From: Comamonadaceae bacterium OS-1
Lineage (GTDB): Bacteria > Pseudomonadota > Gammaproteobacteria > Burkholderiales > Burkholderiaceae_C
Length of the DNA stretch: 64,000 bases
Direction: 5' to 3'
Assembly: GCA_027923965.1 (NCBI GenBank)
Contig: AP026969.1
Span: 124,001-188,000, forward strand
A program made the translations under genes and the position numbers. The notes below the pieces were generated by a model. That model did not search any database. It was not told the DNA's origin and saw only the letters and a program-made list of their open reading frames with translations. Shown one piece after another: positions 54,686 through 64,000 of the stretch. Every line of letters starts with the position of its first letter. The stretch's first letter is position 1.

Positions 54686-56374
54686 TCAGGCAGACATTTT
54701 GTACTGCGGCGCGTGCGCCTGCAGCCACTGCTCCAGCATCATCAAGATCCACACCATTTCACCAAAATAGCCGGGGTGCTCCTGCAGCCGCTCGGTCAGC
54801 AGGCTGCGGATGAATTCGGGGCGCACGATGTTGCGGGTGGCCAGGCTGTTCAGCGAATCGGTGGCGACTGCTCTGAGGCCGTCGTGGCGGGTGGCCCATA
54901 CGCCGAAGGGCAGGCCGAAGCCCTGTTTCTTTTTGGTCAGAATTTCGTCGGGCAGGAAGCCGCGCAGGGCTTCCTTGAAGAACCAGCGCAGCTTCAGGCC
55001 CTTGAGTTTGTACTCCAGCGGCAGCTTGAGCGAGAAGTCCAGCAGCGCCTCGTTGAGCATGGGAAAGCCTACGTGCAGACCCGCCAGCCGGGTGGTGCCG
55101 CAGACCTTGGGCAGGTCGCTTTCGGCCAGGGTGTAGCGCCAGTCGAAGGCCAGCATGCGGTTGAGCTGGCTGCCGGTGGTGGGCAGGTTCCAGATGCCGC
55201 GCTGCTGCTCGGCCGGGCCCTGGATGTTGACCTGGCTCAGAAACGCCGGGGTCAGCACATCGTTCACGCCCAGGCGCAGCAGCAGGTTGTACATCTGCAG
55301 GCGGTCGGGCAGCGGCACCTTGGCCTGTTCCACGTAGCTGGAGGCTTTGCTGAGCAGGGGGATGCTGCTTTCGGCGGTCTTGGCCAGCACCGGCTCCATC
55401 AGGCCGCTGCGGATGCCGCTGGGCAGCATGTCGTACCAGCCGAACACGCGCTGCTTGGCGTAGCGGCTGTTGCCACCAAAGAGCTCGTCGCCGCCGTCAC
55501 CGGCCAAAATTTTGGTCACGCCGTCGTCCTTGGCTTTGCGGGCGCAGTAGTACGAGGGCAGGGCGGACGAGTTGCCAAACGGCTGGTCGTAGGAGCGGGC
55601 CACGTCGGCAATGCTGCGCACCAGGTCGTCGGGGGTGACGTAGTACTCGTGGTGCTCGGTGCCAAAGTGGCGCGAGGCCAGCCGGGCGTATTCCATCTCG
55701 TCGTAGCCCTCGGCATCGAAGCCGATGGAGTAGGTGGCCGCTTTTTGGCCCTGCTTGCCGCCGATTTCGCTGAGCATGCCCGCCACGGTGGAGCTGTCGG
55801 TGCCGCCGCTCAAAAAGCAGGCCGCCGTGCCACCGTCGAGCTGGGCGTTGACGGCGGTGCGCACCAGGCCGCGGAATTCTTCGCGCAGGCTGCTGAACGA
55901 GGCGCTGCGCGGCTCGATGAAGGTCGGCACCCAGTAGGGTGCGACGGTGAGTTTGCCGTGCTCAAACAGCGCGTAGTGGCCTGGCGGCAGGCGGAACACG
56001 CCTTTGAAGATGGTGCGCGGCGAGGGGATGGCGTGGAAGTACAGGTAGTCGAAGATGGCCTGCGGGTCGATGTCGGCCCCATCGGCAAGCTCGTCCGCGC
56101 GGCCCGCAAAGCGGATCTGCCCGTCCGCCACCCGGTAGCACAGGCTGCGAATGGCAAAGCGGTCCACCGCCAAAAAGGTGCGGCCCGATGGCTCTTGCAG
56201 CCCTACCGCAAAGTCGCCCGTGGCCTGCAGCGCGGCGCTGCAGGCATCGGCGGCGCAGGCAGCTTGCCAGGCAGCCAATGTGCCGTTGGTGCCCGCGATG
56301 GCGGCCAGGCGGGCATCGGTAAAGCGGGGGCTGCCAAGTACCAGGGATGCCAGGGAAGGGGTGTTTGAGGACAT
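54686..56374 (-). CDS. asparagine synthase-like protein lacking the N-terminal glutaminase cysteine
   Basis: A 562-residue AsnB-family protein. The synthetase domain is intact: SGGTDSS at 189-195 (PP-loop), the DEME block and DGGDELFGGNSRYAK, and the C-terminal KKKQGFGLPFG. The N-terminal domain is short and begins MSSNTPSLASLVLGSP with no Cys at position 2, so it cannot hydrolyse glutamine in the usual way. The remnant GDFAVGLQEPSGRTFLAVDRFAIRSLCYR corresponds to the DR-x-G region of AsnB. Such proteins occur in exopolysaccharide and glycan loci, where they may amidate sugars or proteins with free ammonia or be structural. Next to it are a beta-helix protein and a glycosyltransferase. Start ATG 56374 is preferred over an upstream in-frame ATG that overlaps the next gene. 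Confidence 0.85.
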   Translation of the reverse strand: MSSNTPSLASLVLGSPRFTDARLAAIAGTNGTLAAWQAACAADACSAALQATGDFAVGLQEPSGRTFLAVDRFAIRSLCYRVADGQIRFAGRADELADGADIDPQAIFDYLYFHAIPSPRTIFKGVFRLPPGHYALFEHGKLTVAPYWVPTFIEPRSASFSSLREEFRGLVRTAVNAQLDGGTAACFLSGGTDSSTVAGMLSEIGGKQGQKAATYSIGFDAEGYDEMEYARLASRHFGTEHHEYYVTPDDLVRSIADVARSYDQPFGNSSALPSYYCARKAKDDGVTKILAGDGGDELFGGNSRYAKQRVFGWYDMLPSGIRSGLMEPVLAKTAESSIPLLSKASSYVEQAKVPLPDRLQMYNLLLRLGVNDVLTPAFLSQVNIQGPAEQQRGIWNLPTTGSQLNRMLAFDWRYTLAESDLPKVCGTTRLAGLHVGFPMLNEALLDFSLKLPLEYKLKGLKLRWFFKEALRGFLPDEILTKKKQGFGLPFGVWATRHDGLRAVATDSLNSLATRNIVRPEFIRSLLTERLQEHPGYFGEMVWILMMLEQWLQAHAPQYKMSA

Positions 56375-56399
56375 AGTGGAAGCGTAGAAAGCAAAAATA

Positions 56400-57566
56400 T
56401 CAGGGCTGGCGCGCCAGCAGGCGCTGCATGGCACCGGGATTATGCGGGGCAATGCTGAGCGCAATGCTCTTGGCGGTGTGACTATATTCACGCTGCGCTT
56501 GCAGGGTTTTGTCCAGGGCAATGGCTTTGCCCAGCAGCGGCGAGCCCGCCCGCAGCCGGTAGTCGCCGCCGGGTGCCAGGCTGCTGCGGTCGGTGTTGAA
56601 GTTGTTGCGGAAGTCGCCCGGCGTGGTGGCCTGCAGGGGTGCCGCGCCCACCAGCAGGTTGTTCGCGGCCAGCACGGCATCGGCACCGGGTTTGACCTTC
56701 AGCCAGACGCCGCCCTGGGGCAGGTCGTCCACCAGGGTGTTGTAGGCCAGGCTGAGCTGGTTGACCGGCCAGGTGTAGCCCTCGGCCCCGAAGGAGATGA
56801 CTGCCGGGTTTTCGGTCAACGGGCCCTGCTGGACGATGTTGCCCACCACCACGGCCACCCCGCCATTGGGAAACTCCAGCTCGTAGCTGGCGCTGCCGCC
56901 TTCGTCGGTCAGGCGGTTGTACAGGATGTTGCTTTGCGCCGCGCGGCTTTTCAGCAGGTGGCCGGTACGGGCGTGGTGCAGGTAACTGCCGGTAATAGTT
57001 GCACGGGCGATCTGGCCGATGTAGAGGTTGTGGTTGTGCCCGTCGGGGCGCATGTTGTAGGCAAATTCGCTGTTTTCCACCTCCAGCACCGCGTTGGGGT
57101 CGTTGCTGGTGAGCAAGCCCATTTCGTTGAGTGTGAAACTGCAGTTGCGCACCACCAGCCAGCCGGATTCAAAGCGGATGCCCGCGCCGTTGCGGCCCGC
57201 CACCTGCGCGCCCTCGAAGTCAAAGCCTTCCACGGTGAACTTTGGCGAACGCACTACCCAGATGCCTTTGTCCTCTGCCGCCGCGCCGTTGGCCTGCAGG
57301 CGCACCCGCCCACCCACGGCACGCAGCGTCAGGTTGGGCTGGGTCCACACGGCCACGTCGCCCACGTACTCGCCTGCATCCACTTCAATAAGAGTGCCTG
57401 CGCTTGCCAGACGGGCAGCAGCAGCTATGGTTTTAATAGCTCGCTGCGGGCCGACCTGCAGCGTGTTGACCGCGCTTTGGGCCACGGCCACGCCGCACAG
57501 CAGCAGCCACAAGGCTAAAAAACGGATGTAACGCGGAGGAAGGGTGAATGCCATAAGTCGGAGCAT
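56400..57566 (-). CDS. secreted right-handed parallel beta-helix protein
   Basis: A 388-residue protein with an N-terminal hydrophobic signal (FLALWLLLCGVAVAQSA) and then repeated short strands typical of a beta-helix: GTLIEVDAGEYVGDVAVWTQPNLTLRAVGGRVRL, FTVEGFDFEGAQVAGRNGAGIRFESGWLVVRNCSF, VLEVENSEFAYN and ATITGSYLHHARTGHLLKSRAAQSNILYNRL. Proteins with this fold bind or cleave acidic polysaccharides. It is 25 bp upstream of the AsnB-like gene in the same direction, so the two are likely co-transcribed and act on an envelope or exopolysaccharide. Residues near 43-60 (RAIKTIAAAARLASAGTLI) are coded by a block carrying the dispersed-repeat motifs AGCTATTAAAACCATAGCTG and GGCAAGCGCAGGC. ATG 57566 or 57554 are both possible starts. 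Confidence 0.82.
   Translation of the reverse strand: MLRLMAFTLPPRYIRFLALWLLLCGVAVAQSAVNTLQVGPQRAIKTIAAAARLASAGTLIEVDAGEYVGDVAVWTQPNLTLRAVGGRVRLQANGAAAEDKGIWVVRSPKFTVEGFDFEGAQVAGRNGAGIRFESGWLVVRNCSFTLNEMGLLTSNDPNAVLEVENSEFAYNMRPDGHNHNLYIGQIARATITGSYLHHARTGHLLKSRAAQSNILYNRLTDEGGSASYELEFPNGGVAVVVGNIVQQGPLTENPAVISFGAEGYTWPVNQLSLAYNTLVDDLPQGGVWLKVKPGADAVLAANNLLVGAAPLQATTPGDFRNNFNTDRSSLAPGGDYRLRAGSPLLGKAIALDKTLQAQREYSHTAKSIALSIAPHNPGAMQRLLARQP
57385..57450. repeat. dispersed repeat motifs in frame in the beta-helix gene
   Basis: On the plus strand CAGCTATGGTTTTAATAGCTC lies downstream of GCCTGCGCTTGCC; the reverse reads AGCTATTAAAACCATAGCTG. The GCTAT...ATAGC symmetry and the A+T content match the other copies. 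The reading frame is kept. Confidence 0.4.
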
Positions 57567-57627
57567 TCTGCCGGATGCCTTGTCACGCTTCTCCCCGTAT
57601 GATCTCGCAGCAGAAATTAACCGAAGA

Positions 57628-57681
57628 CTTACGCAGCCTCCCCTGTGTTGCCCTCTGGGCGCGCAGAGGAGGCTACGTAAG
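57628..57681. promoter_or_regulatory. large inverted repeat in the glycosyltransferase leader
   Basis: CTTACGCAGCCTCC (57628-57641) and GGAGGCTACGTAAG (57668-57681) are complementary over 14 bp with one mismatch, with a 26-base loop. The right arm ends 21 bp before the GTG start at 57703. It could be an RNA hairpin or a dimeric protein site in the space between two divergent genes. Confidence 0.5.
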
Positions 57682-57702
57682 CCGTGTAACCAAGGTCCCC
57701 GT

Positions 57703-58935
57703 GTGAAAACAGTTTTGATGATCGCCTACCACTTCCCGCCGCTGGCGGGCAGCAGTGGTATCCAGCGGACCTTGCGCTTTGTGCAGCACCTGCCCGCGCT
57801 GGGCTGGAAGCCGGTGGTGCTGACCGCCGATCCGCGCGCCTACGAGCGCACCAGCCCCGATTTGATGAACGACGTGCCCGAAGGCACCGTGGTGCGCCGC
57901 GCCTTCGCCCTCGACACGGCCAGGCACCTCAACATCCAGGGCCGCTACATGGGCTGGATGGCCCGGCCCGACCGCTGGATCAGCTGGCGCTTTGACGCGG
58001 TGCGCCAGGGCCTGCAACTCATTAAGGAATTCAAGCCTGACGCGATCTGGTCCACCTACCCCATCGCCACCGCCCATGTGATCGCCCAGCAGTTGCACCA
58101 CAAGACCGGTCTGCCCTGGATTGCCGACTTCCGTGACCCGATGGCCCAAGACGGCTACCCCGCCGACCCCATCACCTGGCGCAGCTACCAGCGCATCGAG
58201 CAAGAGGCGGTGGAGCAGGCCAGCCGCAGCGTCTTCACCACCCCCGGCGCGGCGCAGATGTACCGCGAGCGCTATCCCCAGGCCGCCAGCCGCATCACCG
58301 TGCTGGAAAACGGCTATGACGAAGAGAGCTTTGCCCACGCGCCTGCCGTGGCGAGCCGCCCGTTGACCGACGACCAACCTGTGGTGCTGCTGCACAGCGG
58401 CATCGTCTACCCGTCCGAGCGCGACCCGACCCAGCTCTTTCAGGCCCTGCAGCGCCTCAAGGCCAGTGGTGCGTTGACGGCCCGACAGTTGCAAATCCGC
58501 TTCCGCGCCTCGGCCCACGACGACATGCTGACCCAGTTGGCTACCGAGCACGGCGTGCAGGACTTCATCGAACTCAGCCCCGCCGTGCCCTACCGCGAGG
58601 CGCTGGCTGAAATGTTGTCGGTGGATGCCTTGCTGGTCATGCAGGCCAGCAACTGCAACGCCCAGATTCCGGCCAAGATTTACGAATACCTGCGCGCAGG
58701 CCGCCCCATCCTGGGCCTGACCGACCCGGCGGGCGACACCGCCGGTGTGCTGCGCGGTGCCGGGCTGGAGGCCATGGCCCGCATCGACTCGGCCGACGAG
58801 ATTGCCGCCCTGTTGCCGCAGTTTGTGGCGGATGTGCGGGCCCAGGCGGTGCGTTTGCCCGACCCTGCCGCCGTCAAGAACGCTTCGCGCCAGGGCCGGT
58901 CGCAGGCGTTTGCGGAGCTGCTGGCGGGTTTGTAA
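57703..58935 (+). CDS. glycosyltransferase (GT4-like)
   Basis: A 410-residue GT-B fold glycosyltransferase. GTG 57703 is chosen: it follows AAGG at a proper distance and gives VKTVLMIAYHFPPLAGSSGIQRTLRFVQHLPALGW, the typical N-terminus of the family, whereas the 53 upstream in-frame codons have no resemblance. AIWSTYPIATAHVIAQQLHHKTGLPWIADFRDPMA is the N-domain nucleotide-sugar side. VVLLHSGIVYPSERDPTQLFQALQRL and the C-terminal VSVDALLVMQASNCNAQIPAKIYEYLRAGRPILGLTDPAGDTAG block are the GT4 core with its E-x7-E type region. It probably adds a sugar during polysaccharide assembly with the neighbouring beta-helix and AsnB-like genes. Its last 62 bp overlap the histidine-kinase gene on the other strand. 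Confidence 0.88.
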   Translation: MKTVLMIAYHFPPLAGSSGIQRTLRFVQHLPALGWKPVVLTADPRAYERTSPDLMNDVPEGTVVRRAFALDTARHLNIQGRYMGWMARPDRWISWRFDAVRQGLQLIKEFKPDAIWSTYPIATAHVIAQQLHHKTGLPWIADFRDPMAQDGYPADPITWRSYQRIEQEAVEQASRSVFTTPGAAQMYRERYPQAASRITVLENGYDEESFAHAPAVASRPLTDDQPVVLLHSGIVYPSERDPTQLFQALQRLKASGALTARQLQIRFRASAHDDMLTQLATEHGVQDFIELSPAVPYREALAEMLSVDALLVMQASNCNAQIPAKIYEYLRAGRPILGLTDPAGDTAGVLRGAGLEAMARIDSADEIAALLPQFVADVRAQAVRLPDPAAVKNASRQGRSQAFAELLAGL

Positions 58936-60211
58936 ACACCAGCGCCACCCGCAGTCCGCCCAGTGCGGGGGATGCGTCCAGCCGCAGTTTCGCGCCGTGC
59001 GCCTGCGCAATCGCCTGGGCAATCGCCAGGCCCAGCCCGCTGCCGCCTGCCGTGGCCTCGGCGCTGCGGTAGAAGCGGTCAAACACCTTGTCCAGATCGC
59101 CAGGCGCAATGCCGGGGCCGGAGTCTTCCACGGTCAGCACGGGTGCGCCGTTGTCGGAGGTGATGGCTACGTCCACCCGGCCCTGCTCGGGCGTGTATTT
59201 CAGCGCGTTGTCCAGCAGGTTGCGCAGCAGGATGCGCAGCGCGTCGGGGTGGCCCATCACCTCTGTGGGCTCGCTGGGGGCGACTCCCAGGTCGATGCTG
59301 CGCGCCTGGGCTTGGGGCAGCGCTTCTTCCACGGCGAGTTGCACCAGGTCATGCAGCGCGATGCGCTCAGGCGGCGTATCGCTGGCGGACTCTTGCCGGG
59401 CCAGCACCAGCAGCTGGTTCATCAGGCGCACCGCCCGGTCTATGCCCTGGTGCAGGCGGGCGATGGCGACGCTGCGGGTGGGCGCATCGGGGGCGCGGTC
59501 CAGCGCCTGGGCTTGCAGTTTCAGGGCGGTGAGCGGCGAGCGCAGCTCGTGCGCGGCATTGGCCACAAAGGATTTCTGGGCATCGAAAGCGGCGTGCACC
59601 CGGCCAAACAGCAGGTTCAGCTCACGCACCAGGGGCAGCACCTCGTCGGGCAGGTCGGCTTCGGGCAGGGGCGACAGGTCGTCCACCGCACGTGCTGCCA
59701 CCTGCTGGCGGGTGCGCTCCAGCGGCTTGAGGGCGTGGCGTATGGCCCACCACAGCGCGGCCATCAGCAGCGGGGCCATGATGGCCATGGGCAGCATGGC
59801 GCGCACGGCCAGGGCGCGGGCGCGGGCCTGGCGGGCGCTCAGGTCCTGGGCGATCTGGATGGTTTGCGCCGGGGTCTGGATGGAGTAGACGCGGTAGCGC
59901 GTGCCGTTTTGCTCCACGTCCGAAAAGCCCAGCACGGCCTGCGGTGGCAGGCGGTTGCGGTGCGACTGGAACAGCTGCACCCCGGTGGGGCTCCAGATCT
60001 GCACTTCGTAGTCGGCATCAAAGGGGTCGTCTGGTGTGGCCTGGCTGGGCGCGCCGTTGCGCAGCGCCAATGCCATTTGCTGCAGGTGGTAGTCGAACAT
60101 TTCGTCGGCCTGCTGCAGCGCGCCGCGGTAGGCAGATGCCGCCTGGAACAGCGCGGCCACCACGATGGCGGTCATCACCGAGCCCAGCAGGCGGCGGCGA
60201 ATGGAGTTCAT
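58874..60211 (-). CDS. sensor histidine kinase (QseC-like)
   Basis: A 445-residue membrane kinase with two N-terminal hydrophobic segments (about 9-27 and 137-158) enclosing a periplasmic domain of about 110 residues. A HAMP-like linker follows, then an H-box with phospho-acceptor His221 (FVANAAHELRSPLTAL). The N-box is ILLRNLLDNALKYTPEQG, and G1/G2 boxes VEDSGPGIAPG and GGSGLGLAIAQAIAQAHG complete the ATPase. ATG 60211 overlaps the regulator stop by 4 bp, the usual coupling. The C-terminal 20 residues (PPAAPQTPATGPGAKRS) extend past the catalytic fold and are encoded opposite the end of the glycosyltransferase gene. Signal is unknown. Confidence 0.94.
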   Translation of the reverse strand: MNSIRRRLLGSVMTAIVVAALFQAASAYRGALQQADEMFDYHLQQMALALRNGAPSQATPDDPFDADYEVQIWSPTGVQLFQSHRNRLPPQAVLGFSDVEQNGTRYRVYSIQTPAQTIQIAQDLSARQARARALAVRAMLPMAIMAPLLMAALWWAIRHALKPLERTRQQVAARAVDDLSPLPEADLPDEVLPLVRELNLLFGRVHAAFDAQKSFVANAAHELRSPLTALKLQAQALDRAPDAPTRSVAIARLHQGIDRAVRLMNQLLVLARQESASDTPPERIALHDLVQLAVEEALPQAQARSIDLGVAPSEPTEVMGHPDALRILLRNLLDNALKYTPEQGRVDVAITSDNGAPVLTVEDSGPGIAPGDLDKVFDRFYRSAEATAGGSGLGLAIAQAIAQAHGAKLRLDASPALGGLRVALVFTNPPAAPQTPATGPGAKRS

Positions 60212-60867
60212 GGCCGAGGCATCACATAGCCCAAGCCACGCACGTTCTGGATCAGCTCGGCCCCCAGCTTTTTGCGCAGGCCGTGGATGTAGACCTCGAC
60301 CGCATTGCTGCTCACGTCGTCTTTCCAGCTGTAGAGTTTTTCTTCCAGCTGGGCCCGCGAGAACACCACGCCGGGGCGTGCCATCAGCGCCTCCAGTACG
60401 GCCCATTCGCGGCCGGACAGGGTGACGGGCTGGCCGTCGCGGGTGGCTTCATGGGTGGCGGGGTTCAGGCGCAGGCCATGCACTTCCAGTACCGGGTCGG
60501 CGCGGCCTGCGCTGCGCCGAGTCAGGGCGCGGATGCGGGCCAGCAGCTCGTCGATGTCGTAGGGTTTGAGCACGTAGTCGTCGGCCCCGGCATCCAGCCC
60601 GGCAATGCGGTCGGCCACCGCGTCGCGGGCGGTGACCACCAGCACGGGGGTGGCATCTTTGCGCTGGCGCAGGGCTTTGAGCACGTCCAGCCCGTCGCGC
60701 CGGGGCAGGCCCAGGTCGAGCAGCACGAGGTCGTAGGCGGCGCTGCGCAGGGCAGTGTCGGCCATCTCGCCGTCTTTTACCCAGTCCACGGCGAAGTGCT
60801 CGGCGCGCAGCACGTCGAGCACGGTTTCACCGATCATGGGGTCGTCTTCTACCAGTAACAAGCGCAT
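60208..60867 (-). CDS. OmpR-family response regulator (QseB/PmrA-like)
   Basis: A 219-residue regulator with a receiver domain (phospho-acceptor Asp51 in LVLLDLGLPRRDG, Thr/Lys switch residues in VVTARD and LKPYDIDEL) and a winged-helix DNA-binding domain (VLEALMARPGVVFSRAQLEEKLYSWKDDVSSNAVEVYIHGLRKKLG), the QseB/PmrA branch. It is the first gene of a two-gene operon with the kinase. A direct repeat that fits the PmrA/QseB box lies 23 bp before its start (60891-60907), so it probably controls its own promoter. Confidence 0.94.
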   Translation of the reverse strand: MRLLLVEDDPMIGETVLDVLRAEHFAVDWVKDGEMADTALRSAAYDLVLLDLGLPRRDGLDVLKALRQRKDATPVLVVTARDAVADRIAGLDAGADDYVLKPYDIDELLARIRALTRRSAGRADPVLEVHGLRLNPATHEATRDGQPVTLSGREWAVLEALMARPGVVFSRAQLEEKLYSWKDDVSSNAVEVYIHGLRKKLGAELIQNVRGLGYVMPRP

Positions 60868-60920: not shown

Positions 60921-61508
60921 TTATTTCTTGGGCCGACTCTTGCGCGCTGGCTTGGCCTCTGCCGGTGTGTGTTTCTGGTTTTCCTGGTCCAGCCACAGCA
61001 GCGAGTCCACATGCGACAGAAAACGCTGCAGATATTCGGGCGATAGCTGGCGCATCAGCGCCAGGGAGCGCAGTACCAGCATGTGGGGGTTCAGCGGGCC
61101 GGCGTTTTCGGGGCCGCGCACCATGGCCTGGTCCATATGGTCGATGGCGGCGATTTTGGACCACACCTCGCGGAAACCGCGCACGCTTTTCAGCTCTGGC
61201 CGGGGCCCGTGGTGGTGGCTTGGCTGTGTGGTGCGGCGGATGTAGTGGTTCAGTTCCGCCAGCGGCCCGGGGCCTCTGTTTGGCGCTGGTCGGAGCAGGC
61301 CCTGCGCTTGCCCCATGCGCTGGCTGTAGTCGGCCAGGGCCGTGGCCAGCTTGGCCTGCAAAATGGGCTGCAACGCACCCGTGGCTGCGGACGCGCGGCG
61401 GGATAGCACTTCCAGGTAATGGAAGCGTGCGGGGTCGAAGCGCTGGGCGTCGGCATTGCGTAACGACAGCAACGACTGTAGCGACGGCGACGCTCCCGCC
61501 TCGCTCAT
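60921..61508 (-). CDS. DUF2894 domain protein
   Basis: A 195-residue protein of the DUF2894 family. It begins with a helical half (LQSLLSLRNADAQRFDPARFHYLEVLSRRASAATGALQPILQAKLATALADYSQRM), has a Pro-rich hinge, then the conserved LAELNHYIRRTTQ and the KSVRGFREVWSKIAAIDHMDQAMVRGPENAGPLNPHMLVLRSLALMRQLSPEYLQRFLSHVDSLLWLDQ block. It ends in a basic tail (KPARKSRPKK). No catalytic motif is seen. Its start overlaps the OmpA-like gene by 4 bp, so it is produced with that protein and DUF802; it is probably a soluble accessory part of the same complex. Confidence 0.87.
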   Translation of the reverse strand: MSEAGASPSLQSLLSLRNADAQRFDPARFHYLEVLSRRASAATGALQPILQAKLATALADYSQRMGQAQGLLRPAPNRGPGPLAELNHYIRRTTQPSHHHGPRPELKSVRGFREVWSKIAAIDHMDQAMVRGPENAGPLNPHMLVLRSLALMRQLSPEYLQRFLSHVDSLLWLDQENQKHTPAEAKPARKSRPKK

Positions 61509-62152
61509 GGCTTGGCAGACCGGGGCACCGGGGCCATTTCCACGCGCCGGTTCAGCGCGCGGCCCTCTTCGCTGGTGTTGGAGGCCACCGGCTGCTCTGC
61601 ACCAAAAGCCGCAGCAAACACTTTGGACGAGGGCATGCCTTCATCGATCAGCGAGCGGGTCACCTTGAGGGCGCGCTGGGCCGATAGCTCCAGGTTGTCG
61701 GCAAATTGCTGGTTGCCACCAACGATGGGTTTGTCGTCGGTAAAGCCGCTGACCATCAGCATGTCGCCGCGCTCACCCAGGACCAACTGCAAGGCCGGTA
61801 CCAGGCTTTTCAGCAGTTGCTGGCCTTCAGGGCGCAATTGGTCGGAATTGACCGGGAACAGCACATTGCCGCTGATGCCGATGCGGCCGTTGTTCAGCGT
61901 GACCCGGCCCGCTGCCAGCGGAATGGCCAGGGCCTTTTCCAGTGCCATGCGGCGCTGCTCTTCCGCCTGGCGCTTGCCCACCTCGGCCTGCAGGTTGGCC
62001 ACCAGGTCCATCTGCACCACCAGCACGCCCACCAGGATCAGCACAAACGCGCCCAGCAGGCCCGCCATCAGGTCGCCAAACACCGCCCATACCGGTGCGG
62101 CCTGCGCAATGCTGTCGTCGTCGATTCCATCCAGGCTATCGGCGCCGGTCAT
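61505..62152 (-). CDS. MotB/ZorB-like OmpA-domain membrane protein
   Basis: A 215-residue protein with one N-terminal transmembrane helix, a short coiled coil and an OmpA-like peptidoglycan-binding domain (VSGFTDDKPI, NLELSAQRALKVTRSLIDEG, FGAEQPVASN and the final RALNRRVEM are the OmpA signature). The helix reads VWAVFGDLMAGLLGAFVLIL: Asp27 with the following L-M-x-x-L-L-x-x-F pattern is the arrangement around the ion-carrying Asp of MotB and ZorB. Proteins of this type form the two-fold stator core with a five-fold MotA/ExbB partner. Its start overlaps the DUF802 gene by 4 bp and its stop the DUF2894 gene by 4 bp. Biological role is not known. Confidence 0.85.
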   Translation of the reverse strand: MTGADSLDGIDDDSIAQAAPVWAVFGDLMAGLLGAFVLILVGVLVVQMDLVANLQAEVGKRQAEEQRRMALEKALAIPLAAGRVTLNNGRIGISGNVLFPVNSDQLRPEGQQLLKSLVPALQLVLGERGDMLMVSGFTDDKPIVGGNQQFADNLELSAQRALKVTRSLIDEGMPSSKVFAAAFGAEQPVASNTSEEGRALNRRVEMAPVPRSAKP

Positions 62153-64000
62153 GCCACGCTCTCTTTGGCCACGGCGGCGGGCTTGCTGCCGCGTCTACGC
62201 AGGTCTTCCACCAGCCCCTGCTGCGAGCTGATGCTCAGGTCAATCACCTCGCGCGCCTGCGCCACGTAGTAGGCGAGTTGCTCGTCGCTGCGCGCCACCG
62301 ACTGGCCGATGCTGCCCTCCATGCGGTGCAGGCTGTCGATCAGCTTTTCGTTGCTGGCGCTGAACAGCTGTACCCCATGGCCGAATGCTTCGCCCAGGCT
62401 GGCAAGCTCCACAGCGCTGCCCGCCACATGGGCGGCCACATCCGCCGCCTGGCCCGCGTGGGTGCCCAGGGTGTTGGCAAACTGCTGGCCGGCCTGGTCC
62501 AGCACCGTAGCCGCCGAGGCCACCAGCGACTCGATCGCCGCCTGCTGCGCGTTGGATGCCTGGTTCAGGTGCTGCAGCAGCGTGCTGATTTTTTCCAGTA
62601 GGCTGGAGCGCTCTTCAAAAGCCAGGTTGTCGCGCTCGCTGAGGCGGGTCATTTCCTGGCGCAGTTGGGTGATCACGCCCGCGGCGGCCTGCGGTACTTC
62701 GGCTGCCGTTTGCATCAGCCGGGTCATGGGGGCTTCCAGCGCCGTGCCCAGCGTGGCGAGGTGGCTGGCCAGTGCGGTCTGCAATGCGTCCAGGCGCTCC
62801 ACGGCGGCCACGCCACGGCTGGCTTCTTCGGCCCGCAGCGCACCGAGTTCGCTGCGCCACAAGGCTGCCAGTTGGTCCATGCGCTCGCCTTGCTGCGCGG
62901 CCCAGCGGGCTTCCGTCTCGGTGCGCGACTGCACCAGGGCTTCGGACCGGGCCAGCACCCCGGCCAAGCCGTTCAGCGTCTGGCTGACCTGCTGGCTGGC
63001 ACGGTCGGTAATGTCGCTGGCAGTTTGTGCCAGCGCCAGGCTGGCGGCCCGTTGGTCGGCCAGCGTTTGGGCACCCACGCGCTGCCATTCGCCCTGCAGC
63101 TGGCTGGCCATGGCTTCCAACGCCTGCGTCCAGCCCTGCAGCCGTTGCTGGTCGCTCGCCACCTGCTGGTTTTGCGACGCGGCGGCGGCCTCGTGCACGG
63201 TGGCCAGCAGCGTGGCGGAGCGCTGCTCAAACGTGGTGCTAAAGCGGGTCAGCGCCTGGCCCAATTGGGTAACCTGGGCTTCGCTGCTGCGCGCATGCTG
63301 CTGCAGCGCTGTGGTCCAGCCATCGCCCACGCTGCGCGCCGTGCTGCCGAGCTCAAAGGTCAGGCCGCTGATTTGCGCCTGGGTGGCATCCAGCACGCGC
63401 TGGTGCACACGGCTGGATTCCTGCGCGATCTCTGCCATGGCGGCCTGCACCACCGGCTGCAGGCTCTCGCCCGCCGCCTTGGCCCCGGCCACCAGGCTGT
63501 CTTGCAGCGATGTGCCCACGGACTGGGCCAGTTGGGTGTAGACCCCGCTGACATCGCGGTGGAACTGGTCCTGTTGACTCAGCAACTGCGTGCTTAAGCG
63601 TTCTTGCTGCTCTTGCAGCTGGGTGTTGAGTTGCGCGCTGCGGCGCTCCAGCCCGTCCACCATGGCCTGCAGGCGGTCTACCACTTCGGGCAGGCTCTGT
63701 GACTGCACCTGCAGCGCCTTGAAGGCTTCCTGACGCTGGTGGGCCTGTGACAACGGGCGAAACACCGTGGCCGCCAAGGTGTCGAGCTGGCGCACCACGT
63801 CCAGCCGCTCGCGCCGCCCCAGGGCCGACAACAAGCCCAGCATGGCCGAGGTGGCCACCCCGGCCACCGAGGTGCCAAACGACAGCCCCAGCCCCTTGAT
63901 GGGTGCCGCCAGCGCCGTACGGATGGCCTCCAGGTTGCTAGAACCTTCGAGGGCAAAAACCGCCCCTTTGAAGGTCACCACCATGCCCAGAAAGGTGCCC
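62149..64000 (-). CDS. DUF802 membrane/coiled-coil protein (MotA/ZorA-like), 5' end beyond window
   Basis: At least 617 residues are visible and the frame is open at the right edge: the codons before the first ATG in the window read GTFLG, so the start lies outside. The visible N-part, GTFLGMVVTFKGAVFALEG then APIKGLGLSFGTSVAGVATSAMLGLLSALGRRERL, has the loop-helix-helix pattern of MotA/ExbB/TolQ proteins (GTxLGxxxTF followed by a Gly/Ser-rich helix ending in charged residues). The rest, about 500 residues, is a continuous Gln/Ala-rich coiled coil (for example LNTQLQEQQERLSTQLLSQQDQF), which would project into the cytoplasm like the tail of ZorA. It is the first visible gene of an overlapping operon; a DUF3348 gene is commonly next upstream in related bacteria. 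Confidence 0.82.
   Translation of the reverse strand, partial: GTFLGMVVTFKGAVFALEGSSNLEAIRTALAAPIKGLGLSFGTSVAGVATSAMLGLLSALGRRERLDVVRQLDTLAATVFRPLSQAHQRQEAFKALQVQSQSLPEVVDRLQAMVDGLERRSAQLNTQLQEQQERLSTQLLSQQDQFHRDVSGVYTQLAQSVGTSLQDSLVAGAKAAGESLQPVVQAAMAEIAQESSRVHQRVLDATQAQISGLTFELGSTARSVGDGWTTALQQHARSSEAQVTQLGQALTRFSTTFEQRSATLLATVHEAAAASQNQQVASDQQRLQGWTQALEAMASQLQGEWQRVGAQTLADQRAASLALAQTASDITDRASQQVSQTLNGLAGVLARSEALVQSRTETEARWAAQQGERMDQLAALWRSELGALRAEEASRGVAAVERLDALQTALASHLATLGTALEAPMTRLMQTAAEVPQAAAGVITQLRQEMTRLSERDNLAFEERSSLLEKISTLLQHLNQASNAQQAAIESLVASAATVLDQAGQQFANTLGTHAGQAADVAAHVAGSAVELASLGEAFGHGVQLFSASNEKLIDSLHRMEGSIGQSVARSDEQLAYYVAQAREVIDLSISSQQGLVEDLRRRGSKPAAVAKESVA

Follow-up and report, generated by a model that had tools for sequence, protein, structure and literature searches.

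At one end of a stretch of 64,000 nucleotides from Comamonadaceae bacterium OS-1 (the window, positions 124001-188000 of a single-contig 5.12 Mb genome, AP026969.1) lie genes that resemble those of an ion-driven motor, and this raises the question of what such a motor does in the cell. A sequence-only reading of the stretch took it for a separate, uncharacterized motor whose task was open. By their sequences, the genes are instead a complete four-gene Zorya type III operon (DUF3348-ZorA-ZorB-DUF2894), an already named defence type. Zorya type III is defined by ZorA, ZorB, DUF3348 and DUF2894 (PMC8565338, accessible text), and the definition is restated in the accessible text of PMC11890865; the locus has a ZorA3, a ZorB3 with the membrane-helix Asp and an OmpA domain, and both DUF3348 and DUF2894 as neighbours. 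A type III system from Stenotrophomonas nitritireducens DSM 12575 made at least one of the phages tested plate less well in Escherichia coli, according to the same part of PMC8565338. As this is a known defence type, the task of the motor has already been answered by a test in a relative. The new element is not this identity but the ZorA rod, which is phase-locked, varies widely in length and ends in a fixed tip. No description of a rod with these properties was found in the literature (bioRxiv and most subscription papers, among them the main paper on the type I structure, lay outside the scope of the search), and no mechanism study of Zorya type III was found, as judged on titles and abstract openings; the term DUF802 turned up in one paper, from 2005.

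All four operon proteins match the PADLOC type III models in profile searches. The DUF2894 gene is an open reading frame at 60921..61508 (minus strand, 195 amino acids; PF11445, expectation value (E) 5.6e-50; PDLC00652, E 2.5e-60). The next open reading frame, at 61505..62152 (minus strand, 215 amino acids), encodes the MotB/OmpA-like ZorB, with a single membrane helix and a periplasmic OmpA domain (PDLC00651 ZorB3, E 7.4e-103; PF00691, E 1.7e-17); it also scores above the cut-off of NF006547, a hypothetical protein model. ZorA, the DUF802 protein, occupies 62149..64000 (minus strand) in the window and matches PDLC00648 ZorA3 (E 2.3e-243, residues 1-731) and PF05650 (E 1.8e-12). The full protein of 737 amino acids is completed in the adjoining stretch (L003), and its start is the equivalent of window position 64362. 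DUF3348, which the sequence-only reading had expected beyond the window edge, lies directly upstream of ZorA with a gap of 10 bp, on the same strand as the operon (equivalent of 64373-65128, 251 amino acids; PF11828, E 1.6e-63; PDLC00658, E 7.7e-66), and is preceded by argH, again on the same strand. The DUF2894/ZorB and ZorB/ZorA junctions overlap by exactly 4 bp each, as first noticed. The closest protein relatives are from Rhodoferax/Albidiferax (ZorA 94%; DUF2894 88-92%). It should be pointed out that the ZorF and ZorG names are swapped between sources: DUF3348 is ZorF and DUF2894 is ZorG in the accessible text of PMC8565338 and PMC11890865, and the reverse in PADLOC-DB (PDLC00652-PDLC00658). 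Because of this conflict, DUF numbers are used here for the accessory proteins.

The Asp27 codon of ZorB, the predicted ion-binding residue, is at 62072..62074 (minus strand), an assignment based on conservation and on alignment to position 24 of Shewanella ZorB (8vvn_B). The residue is Asp in all 60 aligned sequences, which come from 64 operon loci (four lacked a usable start of the reading frame). In the 80 named loci, an overlapping set, it is Asp in 79 and a gap in the other. It aligns ungapped with D24 of 8vvn_B in a match that is weak when taken alone (E 0.04), and a ZorB1 profile matches the present ZorB over the same helix with E 3.3e-20. The proposal that Asp27 is the Asp of the MotB/ZorB type is supported. 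For types I and II, D24 of ZorB is described as crucial to defence (PMC11890865, accessible text).

The membrane part of ZorA gives a similar picture. A type I ZorA model matches the N-terminal 404 residues of all 31 ZorA3 sequences (best E 2.6e-13), and the ZorA2 models of type II match at best 28 of the 31. A profile of the 31 N-terminal parts in turn finds Shewanella ZorA (8vvn_C), with E 2.8e-8 for the whole chain and 8.3e-5 for the membrane stretch alone. All 31 sequences share ZorA T123, S165 and S172, which lie opposite T/S in 8vvn_C. Two of these, S165 and S172, are in a hydrophobic helix (residues 160-178; 63829..63885, minus strand) that is the predicted pore helix on the basis of hydropathy, invariant residues and the alignment to 8vvn_C. 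The GTFLG and GLGLSFGTS segments that had been singled out in the DUF802 protein are present. Membrane segments counted by hydropathy vary from two to six within the first 210 residues, with none in four sequences, and the helix number is hence left unclaimed. These results support ZorA and ZorB as a predicted ion-driven motor of the MotAB/ZorAB type. In types I and II, the motor has a 5:2 composition (ZorA5ZorB2), binds peptidoglycan, and requires the Asp and the rod (PMC11890865, accessible text). By analogy, a 5:2 ratio, ion flow at Asp27 and twisting or rotation of the rod may be inferred for type III.

The long, ZorA-like helical tail that had been described is also present. After the membrane helices, ZorA continues as a long helix in which large hydrophobic residues recur with a period of 3.64 residues, as measured over 543 windows in 60 sequences; the power of this hydrophobic stripe is 9.4 at 3.64, compared with 1.0 in shuffled sequences and 1.9 at the heptad value of 3.5. 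The best conserved section of the tail is the C-terminal tip (residues 690-714; 62221..62295, minus strand), where 20 of the 24 positions from 691 to 714 reach 93-100% identity over 245 sequences, a set with many close relatives. Rod length was counted from an invariant Gly in the membrane part up to an invariant Gln in the tip, with alignment anchors that were usable in 247 of 251 sequences; pattern anchors missed 33 of 245. In these 247 sequences the rod measures 277 to 902 residues, with 91 distinct values. The lengths are quantized at 3.640 (nR2 35.9, R 0.63), where 1000 random sets over the periods tried reach at most 11.0, and at a period of 3.5 the nR2 is 0.09. The short and long halves of the lengths have one common phase, and the phase is kept over a range of 600 residues. 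Six loci from other orders in the class, which are among the 251 but were read once the period was already known, served as a held-out check: they have five distinct lengths, each at most 0.07 turn from the phase of the rest (null 0.00014).

Close relatives point to the same rule. Sixteen pairs have ZorB proteins more than 85% identical; five of these pairs have a rod difference of 0 and the others differ by 11, 33, 58, 62, 69, 135, 142, 168 or 211 residues, each difference being at most 0.15 turn from a whole number (several pairs have common members). Single rod indels come in 51 different lengths between 4 and 130 (R 0.59), a clustering at 3.64 equalled by 0 of 2000 random sets; off-phase single indels, e.g. 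12 and 20, are present too. Stepping at 3.64 was not found in the indels of DUF3348 or DUF2894, nor in the lengths of DUF3348, DUF2894 and ZorB. The sequences are related, and the rod statistics describe indel behaviour rather than independent lineages; ZorA rods are the one coiled-coil family measured. Rod change can be fast. In one pair (L054/L059) ZorB is 99% identical and the rods are 62 residues apart, and in another (L098/L099) the values are 94% and 135.

The rod drifts in length, chiefly in steps of whole turns of the helix, with its phase and tip fixed, which argues against a ruler or a tether of fixed reach and for a continuous shaft or strut. Its sequence suggests a shaft that is continuous and phase-locked, with free length and a fixed coupling. 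Chemoreceptors also have long helical rods, with length classes that vary in in-register steps of heptads (3.5); the in-register steps are alike, but those of the ZorA rod are 3.64 and not 3.5. The comparison of relatives thus adds a testable rule on rod phase to what is known of Zorya.

Perhaps the rule extends to other types. Within types I and II, the components are described as well conserved in size (PMC11890865, accessible text), and six type I ZorA rods measure 441-591 residues on a comparable measure. They show clustering at 3.64, with R 0.83 and a null fraction of 0.008, yet the best scanned period is 3.84, and with six rods it is only suggestive that type I follows the same phase rule. 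Type I ZorA is scarce: it was found in 4 of 369 genomes, in one of two and again in one of two (both already known), and in 2 of 398; seven loci were read, of which L244 failed the motif. A scan of plasmids gave 27 further records, which do not enter the comparison. One genome has two different type I ZorA genes on separate contigs (L240 and L241; 718 and 642 amino acids).

What the motor would act upon is a further question. DUF3348 and DUF2894 match only their own DUF families, and neither matches a nuclease family (Pfam, E <= 0.001). DUF3348 is predicted to be all-helical (predicted local distance difference test 83.6, predicted template modelling score 0.79, homologue P0130), and DUF2894 is predicted to be helical with low confidence. 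None of the flanking gene clusters, taken without annotation, is found in more than 11 of 64 loci. Because of these two results, type III is said here to have no recognizable encoded nuclease, although one may have been overlooked. The output of types I and II is attributed to nuclease modules (PMC11890865, accessible text), and type III is a place to seek a different Zorya output. The two accessory proteins have been proposed to regulate ZorAB (PMC8565338, accessible text).

Comparison with known systems is in keeping with the assignment. The type III system of Stenotrophomonas (PMC8565338, accessible text) has the same four families in one operon, and the present operon belongs to another host group. 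Type I (ZorABCD, 8vvn) is alike in the ZorA pore helices, the essential Asp of ZorB and the long cytoplasmic ZorA rod; it differs in that the present operon has DUF3348 and DUF2894 instead of ZorC and ZorD, and, by eye, another rod tip. Neither ZorC nor ZorD is among the flanking genes read, the remaining genome not having been searched for them. Type II (ZorABE) is linked by its ZorA2 models, which match ZorA3 members, and there is no gene for the HNH nickase ZorE among the flanking genes read. Flagellar MotAB and ExbBD share the predicted 5:2 ion-driven motor core and the MotB-like OmpA domain, but the present ZorA has a long cytoplasmic rod and misses the MotA_ExbB Pfam threshold.

The sequence-only reading had called for a survey of DUF802 neighbours, and such a survey shows a recurrent operon: 64 of 66 loci examined are operons, and the order and strand of detected genes are identical in all 64 and in 80 named loci, beyond chance. 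All four genes are detected in 54 of the 64 (tblastn, 1e-5), the other ten comprising three at contig ends and seven with one partner undetected, and in 73 of the 80 named loci, where six of the other seven end at contig edges. The named loci are the best 80 of at least 561 confirmed relatives (Comamonadaceae, Rhodocyclales and others), and some of their genomes are also in the 64-locus set. At E <= 1e-25, a single ZorB3 match per positive genome was found, with 6 positives among 150 genomes in the order, 57 among 200 in the family and 7 among 8 in the genus; one match in the order and one in the family (L104, L095) are weak and have no operon. ZorB identity follows RpoB identity poorly in 51 genomes (Spearman 0.21, Mantel p 0.002), compared with 0.70 for ZorA identity. 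Three genomes of other families, with RpoB at a mean of 77-78% to the family (family mean 88%), have ZorB at 64-66% (family mean 65%). Flanking genes differ for the most part: at least two flank clusters are common to 8 of 33 same-genus pairs and to 8 of 1983 different-genus pairs, and three of the latter eight (L053/L058, L058/L085, L075/L078) include the most widespread flank cluster. Plasmid matches are few, 27 in 72,556 records; 26 are Burkholderiales by genus name, and the 15 records listed are 0.37-3.2 Mb. The cassette is read as moving laterally, and a patchy, laterally moving distribution fits a defence system. A core, vertically inherited operon linked to argH was considered and rejected: a close argH match adjoins the operon in only two of 66 loci, L003 and L100, which are of the same genus, and none of the 80 named loci has one above 60% identity.

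How might such an operon work? We consider it quite probable that the predicted ZorAB ion motor of this complete Zorya III operon senses cell-wall damage and acts through the rod on DUF3348 and DUF2894. If types I and II are a guide (PMC11890865, accessible text), the periplasmic domain of ZorB would meet peptidoglycan disturbed by an entering phage, ions would then pass Asp27, and ZorA would turn or rearrange together with its rod; rotation and rearrangement of the Zorya rod are both left open in that part of the source. The near-invariant tip, at whatever distance, might pass the motion to helical DUF3348 and/or DUF2894 by a putative contact between tip and partner, and the output step could be a recruited host nuclease, membrane depolarization or another. 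A bolder proposal, which is tentative, is a nuclease-free Zorya in which the ion motor twists a phase-locked shaft of free length, the tip drives two purely helical proteins, the system acts mechanically or through a recruited host function, and the shaft follows a general design rule of Zorya.

Several observations weigh against this account. Pfam MotA_ExbB (PF01618) is reached weakly: nine of the 31 relatives match it at E <= 1, with 0.01 as the best value, and the present ZorA has no match to it, either in full length at E 0.001 or with its first 404 residues at E <= 1. Of the likeness to MotA/ExbB/ZorA that had been claimed for the DUF802 helices, the ZorA part is supported by the type I and II models and 8vvn. 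Rod length is uncorrelated with the length of DUF3348 or DUF2894 (n = 54; p 0.12 and 0.25). The one type III member with known phage protection belongs to another family. Lastly, no defence genes stand beside the operon at this locus, which is flanked by argH, a two-component system and sugar-related genes.

This last point also favours a housekeeping envelope device, for tension sensing or trafficking, whose protection against phage would be a side effect of expression in E. coli; the single copy per positive genome and the presence of the operon in seven of eight genomes of its own genus can be looked at in the same way. Such a device seems very unlikely, however, given that the operon is absent in 143 of 200 family genomes and 144 of 150 order genomes (E <= 1e-25), that its location differs between genera, that its correlation with RpoB is weak, and that a relative has published phage protection (PMC8565338, accessible text). 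Another possibility is that type III ZorAB works by ion leak alone, depolarizing the infected cell, with DUF3348 and DUF2894 merely as gates. The two proteins have no nuclease family, DUF3348 is modelled as all-helical, and the regulation of ZorAB by accessory proteins proposed in PMC8565338 (accessible text) would agree. We nevertheless regard this as unlikely: the output of types I and II is ascribed to nuclease modules (PMC11890865, accessible text), and a long rod with a conserved tip has no evident use in a simple leak.

A different doubt concerns the rod itself, whose length steps might reflect slippage of DNA repeats, or recombination among in-phase segments that resemble each other, rather than selection on phase. 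In favour are the repetitive, amphipathic character of the rod and the speed at which its length changes, as the L054/L059 pair illustrates. Against this, most multiples of 3.64 are found (4, 7, 11, 15, 18, 25, 29, 33, 36, 40 and so on) instead of multiples of a single unit, the off-phase 12 and 20 being exceptions, and the phase persists across 600 residues and in the held-out families. Slippage is thus somewhat unlikely as the source of the steps, and the phase-locked shaft is the reading that we prefer.

The genes read on either side of the operon are argH, a response regulator and a sensor kinase. Downstream, the region at 54686-60867 has genes for an asparagine synthase, for a protein with a weak beta-helix match and for a glycosyltransferase, which together resemble a polysaccharide cluster; next come the sensor kinase and the response regulator, which is of the OmpR type, directly downstream of the operon. 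Beyond argH and outside the window (L003:12452-14205), a HipA-like kinase gene is preceded by a helix-turn-helix gene with a one-base overlap. These two are likely a HipBA toxin-antitoxin pair and lie ~3.3 kb from the DUF3348 start.

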